Assembly (NCBI GenBank): GCA_900317165.1
Contig: ONFU01000005.1
Coordinates: 1-43,107 of the forward strand
Direction of reading: 5' to 3'
DNA length: 43,107 nt
Source: an uncultured Erysipelotrichaceae bacterium
Lineage (GTDB): Bacteria; Bacillota_I; Bacilli_A; RFN20; CAG-826
Position numbers and translations under genes: made by a program. Of this stretch, positions 1,644-7,392 are shown in pieces. Every line of letters starts with the position of its first letter. Position 1 is the first letter of the stretch. Below the pieces are notes generated by a model that was given only the letters and a program-made list of their open reading frames with translations, was not told the origin of the DNA and did no database searches.

Positions 1644-1889
1644 TTAAGCAGCTTTCTTTTCAGCTAGTTTCTTCTCAATGGAGTTGAAGAGATCACCAAC
1701 GGTCTTAAAGCTGGAGAGTTCTTCGGTCTCAAAATGAATGCCAACTTCTTCTTCGACAGCATAGCACATTTCGACAACGTCGAGACTATCAAGTCCGAGC
1801 CCGGCCAAATCAGTGTCCATTTCGATGTTTTTGATGTTAAGTCTTTCGCAGAAAAGCGATTTGATACGGGCCATTATTTCATTTTCCAT
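1644..1889 (-). CDS. acpP: Acyl carrier protein
   Basis: 81 residues, the usual ACP length, acidic and helical. The phosphopantetheine site is the DSLD motif with Ser at residue 35-36 (GLGLDSLDVVEM). The prosthetic arm carries growing acyl chains for type II fatty acid synthesis, or acyl groups for phospholipid synthesis, in the cytosol. A ribosome binding site (AGAGGAA) lies 8-9 bases before the ATG, and an extended -10 box lies about 30 bases upstream. It stands alone between the tRNA pair and the Tad operon, with no fab gene next to it. It could be a specialised carrier protein, but the sequence is that of an ordinary ACP. Confidence 0.95.
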   Translation of the reverse strand: MENEIMARIKSLFCERLNIKNIEMDTDLAGLGLDSLDVVEMCYAVEEEVGIHFETEELSSFKTVGDLFNSIEKKLAEKKAA

Positions 1890-1997: not shown

Positions 1998-2144
1998 TTA
2001 AGCTATAAGCGAGGTCTCGTCAGATAGTTTCTGGGAAAGGGTGTCGACGGAGCCGGAGAAGCTCGCGTAAAGCACACTTCCGAAAAGACCAAACATGACG
2101 AGAACCATGAGCATTCCCAAAAGTTGACCTTTGATTTCGGACAT
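1998..2144 (-). CDS. Flp/class III-type pilin subunit, 48 residues
   Basis: This very short gene encodes a 48-residue protein that starts MSEIKGQLLGMLMVLV. A short polar head ends in K5-G6-Q7, followed by a single hydrophobic segment at about residues 7-29 and a short polar tail. That is the layout of Tad (Flp) and archaeal-type pilins, which are cut after Gly by an A24 prepilin peptidase and assembled by their hydrophobic helix. The usual Glu at +5 is not present (Met). It has the best ribosome binding site of the operon (AAAGGAGGTGAAT, 6-7 bases before ATG), as expected for a major subunit made in excess. It is the last gene of the operon, 17 bases after the second TadE-like gene. The pilin role is inferred from size, layout and neighbours. 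Confidence 0.75.
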   Translation of the reverse strand: MSEIKGQLLGMLMVLVMFGLFGSVLYASFSGSVDTLSQKLSDETSLIA

Positions 2145-2161
2145 ATTCTATTCACCTCCTT

Positions 2162-2512
2162 TCATTGATAATACGAGTCATAGTAGCCCACGATGGTTGA
2201 GTGCTGCACCGTAATCGCCATCGTGTTTTTGGACATAATTAAAGGCGTGTAGTCCCTTCTTAATTTGAACGTGAAGGTCATACCAACCCACAAGGGGCCT
2301 TGATGGGAGGAAAGGATCCTGGCGTTGTAGTTATTCAATAAATTTACGGTTGTCTGTGAAATCGCCCCCTCTTTGGCGATTCGGTAGCCTACCGTGGTCG
2401 CCAGGGCATTAAGGCTTGAATGAATGTGGGAAATGCACATCAAGTCACAGGCCAGAAGAAAAACGAACATCAGGAAAACGCTAGAGAGCAACAAAGAAAT
2501 CTTATAGGCCAT
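2162..2512 (-). CDS. TadE-like minor pilin/pseudopilin
   Basis: 116 residues. A hydrophobic N-terminal helix (about residues 5-27) is followed by SSLNALATTVGYRIAKEG, the amphipathic continuation usual in TadE/TadG proteins, and then a small domain predicted to be rich in beta strands. TadE-type pseudopilins sit in the membrane and help start or stabilise Flp pili. The start overlaps the end of tadC by 11 bases, and its ribosome binding site (GGGAGGTG) lies inside the tadC coding end, so translation is coupled. No clear class III cleavage site is visible. Assignment rests on topology and operon position rather than on a strong motif. Confidence 0.6.
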   Translation of the reverse strand: MAYKISLLLSSVFLMFVFLLACDLMCISHIHSSLNALATTVGYRIAKEGAISQTTVNLLNNYNARILSSHQGPLWVGMTFTFKLRRDYTPLIMSKNTMAITVQHSTIVGYYDSYYQ

Positions 2513-3170
2513 TCATAACACCTCCCATAATCTCGACCAACGCGGTCAATAACATCACCATTGAGACCCCTGAGCCAATAAGAGGCAACGCGGAAAGAGA
2601 CGAAACTCTTTCTATCTTCTTCTGCTTCCCAAGTTCATGTTTTTGATCGGACAGGCGACCGAATATTTGACGGAACTGTCGCAAATAGACTTCATTAGTT
2701 CCTTGATCGACCATTTGATAGACGGAAAGCATCACTTGGTTAATCTGAATATCATTGAAATGATCCGCAAATTCAATGTACGGGGTCACCGTTTTATCGT
2801 TTTCAATATCATTGACGAGTTTTTCCAAATGAACTCTCACCGAATCTGAAGCATAAGGAATAATGGACTGCAAAGCGTTATAAACGTTGAAGCCATCGTT
2901 CAGATAAACCTGGAAAAAGGTAAAGAGGCTTACGAATTCCTCTTCGTCTTGGAATGCGATTTTCCGCAGCATCCTTTCATATCTCGAAAAATAGAAATAT
3001 GTGAACACCAATAAACCAAGGACAGGAAAGAGAAGGAATAGAATTTGGCCACGGAGAATAAATAGGCCGACGCCCAATCCTATAAACAAAACCACGCAGA
3101 GGAAATAAACGGCGAATTCCTTATTCTCGTTAAGATTCAAAAGAACCATGTTTTTGCGTATGTTCTTCAT
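2502..3170 (-). CDS. tadC: TadC-like pilus assembly membrane protein (type II secretion F fold)
   Basis: 222 residues. There are two membrane segments near the N-terminus (about 19-39 and 43-61), a cytosolic helical domain (about 70-195) and a C-terminal membrane segment (about 196-220, ending GGVMNGL). This is the T2SSF/GspF-like arrangement of TadC, the inner-membrane platform protein that works with TadB and the TadA ATPase. It overlaps tadB by 4 bases (ATGA) and has a ribosome binding site AAGGAGGT inside the tadB end. It is shorter than proteobacterial TadC (~300 residues), which fits a reduced Gram-positive system. Sequence identity to a named family cannot be tested here; order and topology carry the call. 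Confidence 0.7.
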   Translation of the reverse strand: MKNIRKNMVLLNLNENKEFAVYFLCVVLFIGLGVGLFILRGQILFLLFPVLGLLVFTYFYFSRYERMLRKIAFQDEEEFVSLFTFFQVYLNDGFNVYNALQSIIPYASDSVRVHLEKLVNDIENDKTVTPYIEFADHFNDIQINQVMLSVYQMVDQGTNEVYLRQFRQIFGRLSDQKHELGKQKKIERVSSLSALPLIGSGVSMVMLLTALVEIMGGVMNGL

Positions 3171-3898
3171 GCCTTGACCTCCTTGTATTCCTCTTTCTTG
3201 CTAAGGCCGAAAGCTATTTTTTCTCCCGTATAGAAGCTAACGTAAACCACAATTGAGCCAAGCATCAAAACGAAGAAGGCCGCAAGACAAGAAAGAAAGG
3301 TAACGCTGGTTTTCAAAACATCGTAGAAATTGGATAAGCCAAACCTTAGAAAAACCGTAATCGCCAAAGACATCGACCAAAGCAAACCGAACTGAATCAG
3401 GTTCTTGCGATTGATTGATATGACGTCGTTTTCGGTTTCCTCGATACGAGTAAGCTCAGCGAGAAGTTCATTGGAAAGGCGAATGATATCCCCTCCTTGA
3501 TCTTGATAAATCGATAACGTCGATAGGAACATTCGGTAGATAGGCGAATCAAAATAGGATGCAAGGTATTCGATTTTCTCTATCGTGGACAATTCGGAAA
3601 TGGATTGACTCAAAGAGGTCAATTCGCTTCCTTGCCCCTGAATTGATGAAGCATAGGCTAAGTCTATTGATTCGCTTACCGAAAGGGTCGTCACGAAGGT
3701 ATTTATAAAATGGAAACATTCATGGCGTTTTCTTTCCCTTGTTTTGAATTTCTCAACCATGGGTATCACGGATAAAGACAAAACAAGAATGAAAATCAAA
3801 GCCACGCCTAAAGCGAAAATGATGGAATCGCTAGCGAAAAACGAAGCGAAAGCACAAACCAAAGATATAACCAAGCAGACGATGAATGATGTTTTCAT
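3167..3898 (-). CDS. tadB: TadB-like pilus assembly membrane protein (type II secretion F fold)
   Basis: 243 residues. Two hydrophobic segments lie at residues 3-22 and 24-46. A cytosolic helical region follows (about 60-165, with QDQGGDIIRLSNELLAEL, a typical T2SSF motif: a Gly-Gly turn between amphipathic helices). Two more membrane segments lie at about 170-190 and 198-222, and a charged tail ends the protein. TadB and TadC form the membrane platform on which TadA acts to extrude the pilus. The start lies one base after the tadA stop, with a ribosome binding site AAGGAGA. The tail of this gene supplies the binding site for tadC. Confidence 0.78.
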   Translation of the reverse strand: MKTSFIVCLVISLVCAFASFFASDSIIFALGVALIFILVLSLSVIPMVEKFKTRERKRHECFHFINTFVTTLSVSESIDLAYASSIQGQGSELTSLSQSISELSTIEKIEYLASYFDSPIYRMFLSTLSIYQDQGGDIIRLSNELLAELTRIEETENDVISINRKNLIQFGLLWSMSLAITVFLRFGLSNFYDVLKTSVTFLSCLAAFFVLMLGSIVVYVSFYTGEKIAFGLSKKEEYKEVKA

Positions 3899-3899
3899 A

Positions 3900-4865
3900 C
3901 TAATTGTTCTCCTTATAAAAGTAATCGATCTTCCGAGTTGTTTCGTTTAGATAACCCATCTCGGAAATCCTGCGGAATATCGTTCCATCCTCGGAAACGG
4001 ATCTTTTCAGATAAACGACGATGGAAATGTGGTGGTAGATGTCATCGAGGAGTTCGTCATAGACGAGGTTCTTGCCGGCTTGCATAGCCATCCTAGCCAT
4101 GCGATGGGGAACCGCGGATACGTCCAAAGCGTGGATAGTCGTAATTAACGGGTGTCCGGACATTACGGCATTTAGAGCATCTAGCATCTCAGGGCCACGG
4201 GATTCCGCGACGAGGAGATAATCGGGGTTGTTTCTCAAAGCGTTTCTGATAAGGGCTTGGAAAGAGGATTCCGGTGATCTTTCATCGACAAGCCAACTCG
4301 TCATATCCAAATCTCCGTTTCCTCTACTCAATTCCAATTCCTGGACATTATCGATGACGATGACCCTCGTAAATGGTCTTAGGTGAAGCAAAAGGAACTT
4401 CTGCAGTTCGGTTTTCCCGCACCCCGTCTCCCCCGCGATGATGATGGATTTGCCTTTGTCTATTGCCTCAAGAAGGCGTTCTCTTGTCTCACCTGGGAAA
4501 AAGGTTTTGCTGTTTTCGACCGCGGAGCCACTTGAAGCAATACGCAGAGAAAATGAATAAGCCTTTTTGTTATTGACCCGTACAAGGGATAAGAACGTGG
4601 CGTTAAGGCGATATCTTGAAAAACTCACATCCAAGATCGGTTCCTTGTAGGAGAATTGCTTTTCCGAGAAATTTGCAATTTGCCTTAGAAAGGAACCAAC
4701 TTCTTCATTCGTGAGGGGCATGTCGCTTTTTTTGCGTCCATAAGCGTTATCCATATAAAAGATGGATTCCCCATTCCAAGATATATCGGTCACGGCTTTC
4801 TCCTTTAGAAGGTCGGAAAGGAAAGAGTTCTCCATGAAGACCACGAGCTTTTCGTCATTATCCAT
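3900..4865 (-). CDS. tadA: TadA/CpaF-type pilus assembly ATPase
   Basis: 321 residues of a secretion-ATPase fold (VirB11/PilT/CpaF superfamily) that powers pilus polymerisation on the cytosolic face of the membrane. Visible motifs are Walker A GETGCGKT at 145-152, an acidic Asp box around VIDNVQELEL (170-180), Walker B DYLLVAESRG (about 215-224, the CpaF-type VGEVRG position), and a His box GHPLITTIHA (237-246). The N-terminal domain is short: CpaF proteins are often 400-450 residues, so the extra N-terminal module is missing. It overlaps the upstream TadE-like gene by 8 bases. The Walker and His boxes are intact, so it should be active. Confidence 0.92.
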   Translation of the reverse strand: MDNDEKLVVFMENSFLSDLLKEKAVTDISWNGESIFYMDNAYGRKKSDMPLTNEEVGSFLRQIANFSEKQFSYKEPILDVSFSRYRLNATFLSLVRVNNKKAYSFSLRIASSGSAVENSKTFFPGETRERLLEAIDKGKSIIIAGETGCGKTELQKFLLLHLRPFTRVIVIDNVQELELSRGNGDLDMTSWLVDERSPESSFQALIRNALRNNPDYLLVAESRGPEMLDALNAVMSGHPLITTIHALDVSAVPHRMARMAMQAGKNLVYDELLDDIYHHISIVVYLKRSVSEDGTIFRRISEMGYLNETTRKIDYFYKENN

Positions 4866-5256
4866 AATTCTCTAACCCCTTAACGATTTGGAATGTGGCA
4901 ACGCGGGATATTCTTTTCCACATCTTTGGATAGAAAGTAATCGTGACCTTCGCTTTGTAAGGAGAGGTAAGCCCGGATTGACCGGATTTGGCGTAATAAT
5001 TGATGGAAAGAGAGTATTTGCAAATCGGCTTAACCTCCAATTCGCAATAGGCTTTGACGTTCGCGGTGAAAGTCGTCCTTGAGAAAACGGGCTCGTTAAG
5101 TTCCGCTCCGGTTGAATCAGAGACGATTACCGAATTCTCGGCAATTCCTTTATATAGCCCAAGATAGGCTCTTTCGATATTGGAAAGGGTATAGTTGACC
5201 GAGAAGAAATGAATGATTGTCACCATGATGATGGTTGAACCCAAAATATGTACCAT
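4858..5256 (-). CDS. TadE-like pseudopilin
   Basis: 132 residues. A very short head (MVHILG) precedes a hydrophobic helix (about 6-24), followed by an amphipathic stretch and a beta-rich domain with two cysteines (CELEVKPIC) that could form a disulfide outside the cell. By layout it is a TadE/TadG-type minor pilin, comparable to the 116-residue protein in the same operon. It has a good ribosome binding site (AGGAGGAAAGGC before ATG) and starts 10 bases after the exported 349-residue protein. The end overlaps tadA by 8 bases. The family call is from topology and context. Confidence 0.55.
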   Translation of the reverse strand: MVHILGSTIIMVTIIHFFSVNYTLSNIERAYLGLYKGIAENSVIVSDSTGAELNEPVFSRTTFTANVKAYCELEVKPICKYSLSINYYAKSGQSGLTSPYKAKVTITFYPKMWKRISRVATFQIVKGLENYG

Positions 5257-5266
5257 GCCTTTCCTC

Positions 5267-6316
5267 CTATCCTAAGGCGACGCAATAATCGGCTTCGACG
5301 CAATTGCCGAAGAACTTCCCGGTGTTGTTCGCCATGAAATTGACGGTGATCCTGTCCCTATACTCCGTCAGGTCATAGAGGTTTAATTGGCATTGATATA
5401 TAGCGTCGTCATGGCCTTTTTTAGTCGGAATAAAAACGTCGTTGGAACGGAAATAATCATTTATTGGCGGAGTGCTTGAATACATCGAATAATCAAGCCT
5501 AGAGACATAGTAGGAAAACTCTGTCTGAACCTTATATATGCGGAAGAGGACCCCCTGATCGCTCGTCCAGTTGGAAAGATACTCGAATACCAAAGGGACT
5601 TTGGCGGCATATTTCCCATTCAAAAAGACTTTTGGGAAAACGGTCCATTCGTCTGGATATGAGAAGATGTATAAATCGCTTTTTCCCGAAAGGACATTAG
5701 AGTTGTTGATCCCTCCATGAAAGCCGATCGTGAATGAGGAAATATTCAACCCGTGATATTGTTTTTGACCGTTATCCTTACTCCAGGAACCAATCCGATA
5801 AAGGTCGCTTTCCTTAAGCTGATTTCCGTTTGAGAAACGGTTACACCACCTATAGGTGTCATATACTTTGTTTTCTTGTGGATCTTCTAGGACCATTTGA
5901 TCACCAAATCGTTCGATGTTCCACGTAGCCGTAAGAGGATATGTTTGTGTAAAGATGCTGGCCTTGATATTGAAGTTGATGACAAGAAAGACGCTCGAAT
6001 AGACTTTCGTATAATAGGCGGGGACGCTAGATTCATCATAGAATTCAGGGTTCGAGGAACTCAAAACCCCCGATTTAGTTAATTGCGAATAAAGCGTTTT
6101 GGCCTTACTTGAATCCTGATAAAGGGTCCATGAATATTCGTATCTTGGCAAATCCATATTCGTATAACGGAAACGGATTGTAAGAGGGGATCCCGCCACT
6201 AAAGGACCTATATCATAGGTAATCCCATCGAATAGGCTTTCCCCTGAAGCCGCGAAGCTAGAAAGCAGCGTCGCGGAAATTAGTAAGAACTTTCTACTTC
6301 TTTTTCCTTTAAGCAT
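5267..6316 (-). CDS. Exported protein of unknown function in the pilus operon
   Basis: 349 residues that I do not recognise. A positively charged start (MLKGKRSRK), a hydrophobic core and a plausible cut after SFAASG (about residue 25) make a classical Sec signal peptide. The rest is polar, rich in Tyr, Ser, Asn and Trp, with alternating hydrophobic residues that suggest beta sandwiches. There is no C-terminal membrane anchor and no LPXTG. Four cysteines lie in the mature part, two close together near the C-terminus (GNCVEADYC). Position two genes before the ATPase suggests a pilus-associated surface or tip protein or assembly factor; this is inference. It overlaps the upstream gene by 8 bases and has an AGGAGG ribosome binding site. 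Confidence 0.6.
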   Translation of the reverse strand: MLKGKRSRKFLLISATLLSSFAASGESLFDGITYDIGPLVAGSPLTIRFRYTNMDLPRYEYSWTLYQDSSKAKTLYSQLTKSGVLSSSNPEFYDESSVPAYYTKVYSSVFLVINFNIKASIFTQTYPLTATWNIERFGDQMVLEDPQENKVYDTYRWCNRFSNGNQLKESDLYRIGSWSKDNGQKQYHGLNISSFTIGFHGGINNSNVLSGKSDLYIFSYPDEWTVFPKVFLNGKYAAKVPLVFEYLSNWTSDQGVLFRIYKVQTEFSYYVSRLDYSMYSSTPPINDYFRSNDVFIPTKKGHDDAIYQCQLNLYDLTEYRDRITVNFMANNTGKFFGNCVEADYCVALG

Positions 6317-6689
6317 CGAAATAACCTCCTAAAGTTTTATAAGCCCGATAAGCCAAAAATCTCATTTCGGAGGAATACTCGCTATCGCTATTGAAATAAA
6401 ACCTCCACCAAAAACGATATTCGACCCCTAAACAAAGGAACTCTTTATCGAAGAATTCCCTTTCAAGTGGATCTAATTCCATAAGGAAACGCTTCATTTT
6501 CCGGATGAAATCGACTTCCTTTTTAGGGGTAAGAAAAGAAACATGGGATAAATCCACCTCTTCTACCCTCATCAAAGGGCTCATCCCTACGTTGGTAAGG
6601 CTTCTACGCAACCTCTTCCTCAAGGTTTCCGCGACGTAACGCGGTCTGACTTTTTGAATGTTTTCGTTCATGTTTTTTCCTCTTTTCAT
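6309..6689 (-). CDS. Small cytosolic protein of unknown function, first gene of the pilus operon
   Basis: 126 residues, no signal or membrane segment, strongly basic N-terminal half (RPRYVAETLRKRLRRS) and a helical C-terminal half with FWWRFYFNSDSEY. The C-terminal aromatic pattern recalls the small MG284/MPN403-type proteins of mollicutes and sigma-like phage regulators (ArpU/RinA), which I cannot verify. It might be a DNA-binding regulator of the pilus operon. Two starts are possible. The ATG at 6689 has GGGAGAG 4-6 bases upstream. The ATG at 6671 (Met7) has AGAGG 7 bases upstream and would give 120 residues. It is divergent from the guanylate-kinase-like gene, with no convincing promoter visible on this strand. 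Confidence 0.6.
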   Translation of the reverse strand: MKRGKNMNENIQKVRPRYVAETLRKRLRRSLTNVGMSPLMRVEEVDLSHVSFLTPKKEVDFIRKMKRFLMELDPLEREFFDKEFLCLGVEYRFWWRFYFNSDSEYSSEMRFLAYRAYKTLGGYFDA

Positions 6690-6846: not shown

Positions 6847-7392
6847 ATGATAGTTTTAATCGGCGCTTCAGCCAGCGGCAAAACGGAAATCGCGAAAAGA
6901 TTAGGAACCCTTTTCGGTATCAAAAAAGCGGTCACCCATACGACGAGGTCACCGCGGGTAGGCGAAAGGAATCACGTCGATTACCATTTCGTAAGCCAGG
7001 AGGAATTCCTCCGTCTTAAGAAAGAGGACGCCTTTGTCGAGACGACTTACTATAACGGAAATTACTACGGTTGTTCTAAGGCAGAGATCGGTGTCGATAA
7101 GGTCGTCATCGTCGATCCGTCCGGTCTATTATCTTTCCTAGCGTTAAAAGACAAATCAATTATCACCTTCCTCCTTTCTTGCGATGAAAAAACGCGCAAG
7201 GAAAGAATGGAAAGGCGCCTTGATGATGCCCATGCGATAGAATCTAGGTTGGAAAATGACCGTGTGGCTTTTGCTAAAGAAAACGTTGCCCCCACGGATT
7301 TTGAAATCGACACCAGCGATAAAGGCATCGATGAATTAACAAAACTCATCTATGACCTTTATAAAGAAGAATACGAAAAACGAATTAATTGA
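6847..7392 (+). CDS. gmk: Guanylate kinase (or close paralogue)
   Basis: 181 residues. The P-loop is GASASGKTE (residues 6-14), followed by the guanylate-binding block TTRSPRVGERNHVDYHFVS (about 37-55) and a lid region with RKERMERRL. This fits guanylate kinase, which phosphorylates GMP or dGMP to the diphosphate with ATP. The P-loop differs from the common GPSGSGKGT, and the protein is a little shorter than the usual ~205 residues. A second gmk elsewhere would make this a paralogue. Transcription appears leaderless (see the promoter at 6812-6840). The 3' end overlaps the convergent CNNM gene by 8 bases, and no terminator separates them. Confidence 0.82.
   Translation: MIVLIGASASGKTEIAKRLGTLFGIKKAVTHTTRSPRVGERNHVDYHFVSQEEFLRLKKEDAFVETTYYNGNYYGCSKAEIGVDKVVIVDPSGLLSFLALKDKSIITFLLSCDEKTRKERMERRLDDAHAIESRLENDRVAFAKENVAPTDFEIDTSDKGIDELTKLIYDLYKEEYEKRIN

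Follow-up and report, generated by a model that had tools for sequence, protein, structure and literature searches.

The 43,107-nt contig ONFU01000005.1 of an uncultured Erysipelotrichaceae bacterium (the window, by which we mean this whole stretch of DNA) forms part of a 1.66-Mb draft genome that is 84% complete in 141 contigs, and it carries a compact operon with gene products resembling components of Tad pilus systems. The initial annotation had described eight minus-strand genes separated by overlaps or gaps of -11 to +17 bases, and all eight open reading frames (ORFs) were found where it had placed them, at 1998-6689, with distances from the first gene (P1) to the last (P8) of -8, +10, -8, +1, -4, -11 and +17 bases. 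A Shine-Dalgarno-like sequence precedes most of them. The first two genes encode a probable DNA-binding regulator of the MG284/MPN403 family with a sigma-region-4/ArpU-like helix-turn-helix (P1; 6309-6689, 126 residues) and an exported protein with predicted immunoglobulin (Ig)-like beta-sandwich domains, a candidate tip or surface adhesin (P2; 5267-6316, 349 residues). They are followed by a pilin-like pseudopilin assigned by predicted fold (P3; 4858-5256, 132 residues), a short CpaF/TadA-type secretion ATPase (P4; 3900-4865, 321 residues), TadB-like (P5; 3167-3898, 243 residues) and TadC-like (P6; 2502-3170, 222 residues) membrane platform proteins, a TadE/TadF-like pseudopilin (P7; 2162-2512, 116 residues) and a candidate major pilin (P8; 1998-2144, 48 residues).

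A protein search of 61 relatives with the ATPase as query returned matches in 42, the short ATPase type occurring in most of the window's genus and, beyond it, in a number of further families of the order. A further 38 loci (39 with the window) were fetched and searched with iterated profiles. The gene order is kept in relatives from about six families of one Bacilli order, and 25 of the 39 loci, window included, present all eight genes in the same order, which excludes a chance run of ORFs and identifies a stable chromosomal unit. Conserved co-occurrence of the eight genes had been named in the initial annotation as what would support it. The remaining loci mostly end at contig ends or hold a diverged exported protein in the P2 position (of ~320-365 residues in loci of other families).

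Motor, platform and pilin-like subunits

The P4 protein matches Pfam T2SSE (3.9e-20) and the VirB11 (1.5e-36) and TadA (5.5e-29) models, and falls in the CpaF/VirB11/FlaI group, not in the PilB group. Its Walker A (GETGCGKTEL) and His box (HALD) are intact, and the Walker A, Glu and His-box residues are invariant in 12 relatives. With 321 residues versus ~450 for classical CpaF of the same class, P4 is missing the N-terminal region, and its description as a short CpaF ATPase with intact motifs and no N-terminal extension holds. In a class-wide ATPase tree built with FastTree, from which the support values are taken, the operon ATPases form one group (0.93) within a clade of compact ATPases (0.99) that is separate from classical CpaF and that also holds the ATPases of the compact Tad-like loci discussed below.

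Profile searches with Pfam had been proposed as a check on the remaining components. No single window protein matched the T2SSF, TadE or Flp models, but T2SSF matched 4 of 27 P5 relatives (best 6.7e-5) and 7 of 25 P6 relatives (best 2.3e-5). In profile comparisons, P5 and P6 match each other (98.6%), P5 matches the TadB of compact loci (92.6%) and P6 their TadC (98.6%). Because their relatives match T2SSF, because they match each other and because both match compact TadB and TadC, P5 is, by sequence, TadB and P6 is TadC, as first annotated, and the operon presents the paired platform characteristic of Tad systems.

The 48-residue P8 has no Pfam family and no Flp_Fap match. Its annotation as a pilin is supported by a profile match to the leaderless pilins that compact Tad loci encode (61.7%, E 7.7e-5). 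An alignment of 30 P8 pilins outlined the N-terminal consensus M[SG]E[ILF]K[GA]Q[LI]L, in which M1, E3, K5, Q7, L9 and F18 are invariant and the position equivalent to +5 is not Glu.

The claim that the operon encodes two TadE-like proteins stands in part. For P7, Pfam TadF matches 2 of 30 relatives, weakly (best 2.5e-4); its N-terminus, M[AS]YK, is followed by a hydrophobic stretch with a near-invariant Asp23. P3 is pilin-like by predicted fold only: its AlphaFold model, with a predicted local distance difference test (pLDDT) score of 93, comprises a helix (2-33) followed by a four-stranded sheet, and about three residues precede the hydrophobic stretch. A Foldseek search of this model against the PDB returned no match below 1e-3, and assignment of P3 to a solved fold was rejected.

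Prepilin peptidase and processing site

No Pfam A24 prepilin peptidase was detected in the window, as the initial annotation had noted, and its expectation of a peptidase encoded elsewhere in the genome was not borne out: none was found in the window's own genome, and the relatives show the absence to be real. Of the 74 window-family genomes searched, 67 have the short ATPase and seven have A24 (these tallies are hand counts), the seventh of the latter (in G385) being a weak match. A24 is absent from 60 of the 67 operon-bearing genomes, many of them more than 95% complete and including a single-contig genome that is 99% complete (G291) and one that is 100% complete (G005), and likewise from eight genomes elsewhere in the order that carry the operon. 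In the sample of relatives, A24 was found in eight genomes, each encoding a PilB-type ATPase (~560-590 residues) on the contig of the peptidase, and two of these loci carry T4a-type prepilins.

As a control, the same search identified A24 in 162 of the 395 Bacilli genomes screened. Several other Bacilli families have it in the majority of their genomes, among them one with genomes of ~1 Mb (f17). It also recovered a very short, divergent TadV of 122 residues with a GGGDIK motif, encoded in a compact Tad-like operon of another family (f9, genome G061, locus L136), which is possibly an intermediate. Given that the control families and this short TadV were both found, the sensitivity of the search is adequate. 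In this family, A24 is truly absent from nearly all operon-bearing genomes, not merely from one draft genome.

Nor is the substrate motif present. The classical loci of this class encode Flp (ESGQGMVEYGL) and TadE/F (GQ-x3-EF) beside TadV. The G|xxxxE processing site is absent from all three pilin-like subunits of the window (P3, P7 and P8), no prepilin site was detected in the P3 and P7 relatives examined, and P8 does not present the class III leader with Glu+5 and Tyr+6 that defines Flp pilins. Since both the peptidase and its substrate motif are gone, unprocessed subunits are favoured over an enzyme that escaped detection. Within the operon, which is where a TadZ/CpaE localisation ATPase was looked for, no further P-loop protein was found.

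Accessory genes, genomic context and host

The NCBIfam model NF045770 matches 22 of 33 P1 family members (best 3.6e-20), so that the C-terminal MPN403_MG284 domain is present in the family, and the ArpU model TIGR01637 matches five of the 33; the window P1 alone scores 0.0051 against NF045770, below the curated cut-off. P1 probably controls transcription of the operon. P2 has no Pfam family. Its AlphaFold model (pLDDT 81) presents beta-sandwich domains behind a signal-peptide-like N-terminus, in line with the export proposed for this protein, and in Foldseek it was matched best by the beta-sandwich regions found in transglutaminases and in ClfB (E values of 1.8e-5 or weaker, with low TM-scores). 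A C-terminal motif with two cysteines, FGxCxxAxYCV, is conserved in many P2 proteins (alignment A3; window 5267-5330).

The operon had been said to end at a terminator at 1942-1984. An intrinsic-terminator-like hairpin does lie 3' of the pilin gene on the minus strand (1949-1977), with an 11-bp stem, a 7-nt loop and a T-rich tail (CTTTTTGTTA), but the conserved unit runs past it into an acyl carrier protein (ACP) gene (1644-1889, minus strand). Terminator-like matches across the region occur at chance level (6 found versus 6.1 expected), and a promoter scan of the region was uninformative, with matches below chance. In nearly all window-family loci that reach that far, the ACP gene follows soon after the pilin gene on the same strand. 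Upstream of P1, a divergent guanylate-kinase-like gene (6847-7392, plus strand), which is not part of the machine, was present in 31 of 31 window-family loci tested and in none of six loci from other families. Both the ACP and the guanylate-kinase genes are part of a conserved block in the window's family. The ACP gene is closely followed, on its own strand, by genes for tRNA-Glu and tRNA-Asn (1377-1535).

The named near relatives of the operon are metagenome-assembled genomes labelled 'uncultured Erysipelotrichaceae', 'Bacilli' or 'Bacillales', some of them from rumen. Of 37 window-family genomes, 36 encode neither penicillin-binding protein (PBP) transpeptidases nor SEDS proteins, in agreement with the prediction that the RFN20 families CAG-826 and CAG-288 are peptidoglycan-deficient (PMC10868615). 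To judge by phenotype, the window's family is presumably CAG-826. Because these enzymes are missing, the hosts, which are gut or rumen bacteria, are probably wall-less and devoid of peptidoglycan. Hence, of the initial description as a reduced Gram-positive variant, the compact, Tad-related nature of the machine is retained, and 'Gram-positive' is better replaced by 'probably wall-less Bacilli'. The sole window-family genome with PBP and SEDS genes (G035) also lacks the operon ATPase. Two other families (f6 and f8) have both the operon and a wall, indicating that wall loss is not required for the operon.

Proposed function and comparison with known systems

Our preferred interpretation, which we hold to be somewhat more likely than not, is that the operon specifies a filament machine related to Tad/type IVc systems and able to work with no prepilin peptidase. 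In the mechanism that we propose, the short CpaF-type ATPase P4 would drive the TadB/TadC platform (P5 and P6), which would assemble the 48-residue pilin P8 together with the two pseudopilins P3 and P7. These three subunits would enter the membrane unprocessed, since their N-termini already lie near the hydrophobic stretch and none of them keeps a G|xxxxE site. The exported, Ig-like P2 would be displayed on the structure or at its tip, probably as its adhesive part, with plant fibre, mucus or neighbouring cells as the most likely targets, and P1 would act as the regulator. In a host seemingly lacking peptidoglycan, the structure would have to cross one membrane only.

Several observations weigh against this interpretation. 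The filament is a prediction from the genes of uncultured organisms; no protein of known function is clearly related to P2, and for P3 and P7 any significant similarity to classical TadE is slight or absent. The K5, G/A6 and Q7 residues of the pilin resemble the -2, -1 and +1 residues of classical TadE sites (KGQ), and processing of P8 by another enzyme, unrelated to A24, is possible. In addition, two sister families of the same order (f3 and f4) keep P1, P2-like, P3-like and P7-like proteins and one TadB/C-like protein, with no ATPase and no pilin, and part of the system may therefore do something other than build a pilus. Profile comparison with the window's family backs these identities by sequence for P1 (98.7%), P2 (72%), P3 (90%) and P7 (97%), but not for the single membrane protein of 290-377 residues in the TadB/C position (18% for TadB). 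Such ATPase-less, pilin-less versions were seen at L126, L127, L128, L156, L157 and L159-L161.

These reduced versions provide the main argument for the best-surviving alternative, in which Tad parts make up a static envelope complex or a protein-secretion device instead of a pilus. The persistence of the reduced versions in both sister families and the constant partnership with the exported P2 would fit such a device. The window's lineage nevertheless keeps the ATPase motifs and a very conserved 48-residue pilin in essentially all complete loci, and we consider this alternative unlikely. A slightly less probable alternative holds that the pilins are processed after Gly/Ala6 by a peptidase other than A24, such as signal peptidase I or an unknown membrane protease. 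The Gly or Ala at position 6, between the invariant K5 and Q7, has the look of a cleavage site, and the genome holds a signal peptidase I gene. Signal peptidase I, on the other hand, cleaves after the hydrophobic stretch and not before it, P3 and P7 have no comparable site, and the pilins of related compact loci start with MKAFFEEYG and thus have no leader to remove. The KGQ of P8 may be a remnant of the classical processing site.

Use of the structure as a DNA-uptake pilus for natural transformation appears improbable. ComEC was found in many relatives, most of which have no other pilus ATPase, but it is not associated with the operon (28 of 39 operon-bearing versus 13 of 22 operon-free genomes, by hand count) and two families (f4 and f5) that have no such ATPase retain ComEC; a competence function was rejected on the grounds that ComEC does not track the operon. 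Least credible of all, and largely refuted, is an ordinary reduced Tad system whose prepilin peptidase was missed through assembly gaps or extreme divergence, since the fragmented state of the window's genome and the short TadV within the operon of one relative (G061) are outweighed by the consistent absence of A24 from near-complete family genomes under a search with working controls, and by the loss of the substrate motif.

The operon can be set against known systems. The classical monoderm Tad (type IVc, Flp) loci of the Bacillota, such as that of Bulleidia extructa (PMC12786226) and the loci L176-L179, share with it a CpaF/TadA-type ATPase followed by TadB and TadC, a very small pilin, pseudopilins (putative ones in the window) and the lack of a secretin. 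The classical loci also encode TadV, CpaB, TadZ-like proteins, the ~450-residue CpaF, and Flp and TadE/F with G|xxxxE sites, all of them missing from the window operon, in which P1, P2 and ACP are new partners. Because TadV and a class III pilin site, two features that define Tad, were looked for and not found, the operon is not filed as a Tad pilus, but classed as a variant derived from Tad that probably functions in the same way.

Likenesses were also found in the compact Tad-like loci of three other families (f25, f20 and f17; L138-L147 and L155), which likewise combine a short CpaF, TadB and TadC with a ~50-residue pilin lacking a classical leader. They differ in that most encode a CpaB/SAF-like protein ahead of the ATPase and in containing no P1- or P2-type genes, and their genomes usually keep an A24 peptidase elsewhere. 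Several of these loci (L138-L141 and L155) encode truly leaderless pilins (MKAFFEEYGLV, MKSAIELY) despite an A24 peptidase elsewhere in the genome. At a further locus (L137, genome G065), conjugative-looking proteins (a large membrane protein and a PrgI-like protein) are encoded next to a short CpaF-like ATPase and its TadB/C- and TadE-like neighbours.

Tad-like loci encoding no protein with a recognisable prepilin signal have been described in some Clostridia (Imam et al. 2011, PMC3244431); unlike the window operon, these retain tadV, tadZ and rcpC homologues (PMC3244431). MSH-type loci also lack a prepilin peptidase, but MSH genomes always have one from another system, thought to be borrowed (Denise et al. 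2019, PMC6668835), whereas nearly all the operon-bearing genomes analysed here have no A24 peptidase at all. We know of no published description of a lineage that has no A24 at all yet conserves a motor, platform and pilin of the Tad type. A literature search returned no paper joining Tad, pilus and RF39; the study of wall loss in these orders mentions no pili (PMC10868615; text searched for 'pili' and 'Tad'), and neither does a paper on environmental Tenericutes. Across the type IV filament superfamily, prepilin processing by A24 is regarded as a core step of ancestral origin (PMC6668835), and the Mollicutes have served as a pilus-negative reference set (PMC3244431). If our interpretation is correct, a lineage retaining motor, platform and pilin with neither the enzyme nor its site would indicate that processing is dispensable and would constitute a natural minimal system, while placing a pilus-like machine in apparently peptidoglycan-deficient relatives of the mycoplasmas.

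The last system for comparison is the conserved but poorly characterised MG284/MPN403 cluster of mycoplasmas (small genomes in which TGA encodes Trp; L120-L124 and L162-L174), which comprises the MG284/MPN403 gene, genes for a ~375-residue protein and a ~140-residue single-span protein, and in most cases an ACP gene. Like the window operon, it begins with a P1 homologue, a relationship that sequence comparison makes secure, and usually ends with ACP. It differs in having no ATPase, TadB, TadC or pilin, and neither of its two middle proteins can be equated convincingly with P2 or P3: the second shows no similarity to P2 by profile comparison, and the third matches the P3 set of one reduced family (f3) above column-shuffled decoys (E 6e-4) but scores within the decoys against the combined P3 set, a suggestive but weak resemblance. 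The openly readable literature on MPN403/MG284-286 yielded no relevant text. The P1 homologue, the weak P3 resemblance and the common ACP end point suggest, but do not prove, that this cluster is a remnant of the window's operon type. We tentatively propose, as a scenario with perhaps one chance in three of being right, that a Tad-derived machine first became independent of prepilin processing, in wall-less Bacilli that are relatives of the mycoplasmas, and later lost its parts step by step, being complete in the window's family, devoid of ATPase and pilin in the two reduced sister families, and represented in mycoplasmas by an MG284-type regulator, two other proteins and ACP, the MG284-MG287-type cluster thus being what remains of a pilus operon. 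Such a derivation would give this conserved mycoplasma gene cluster a testable origin.

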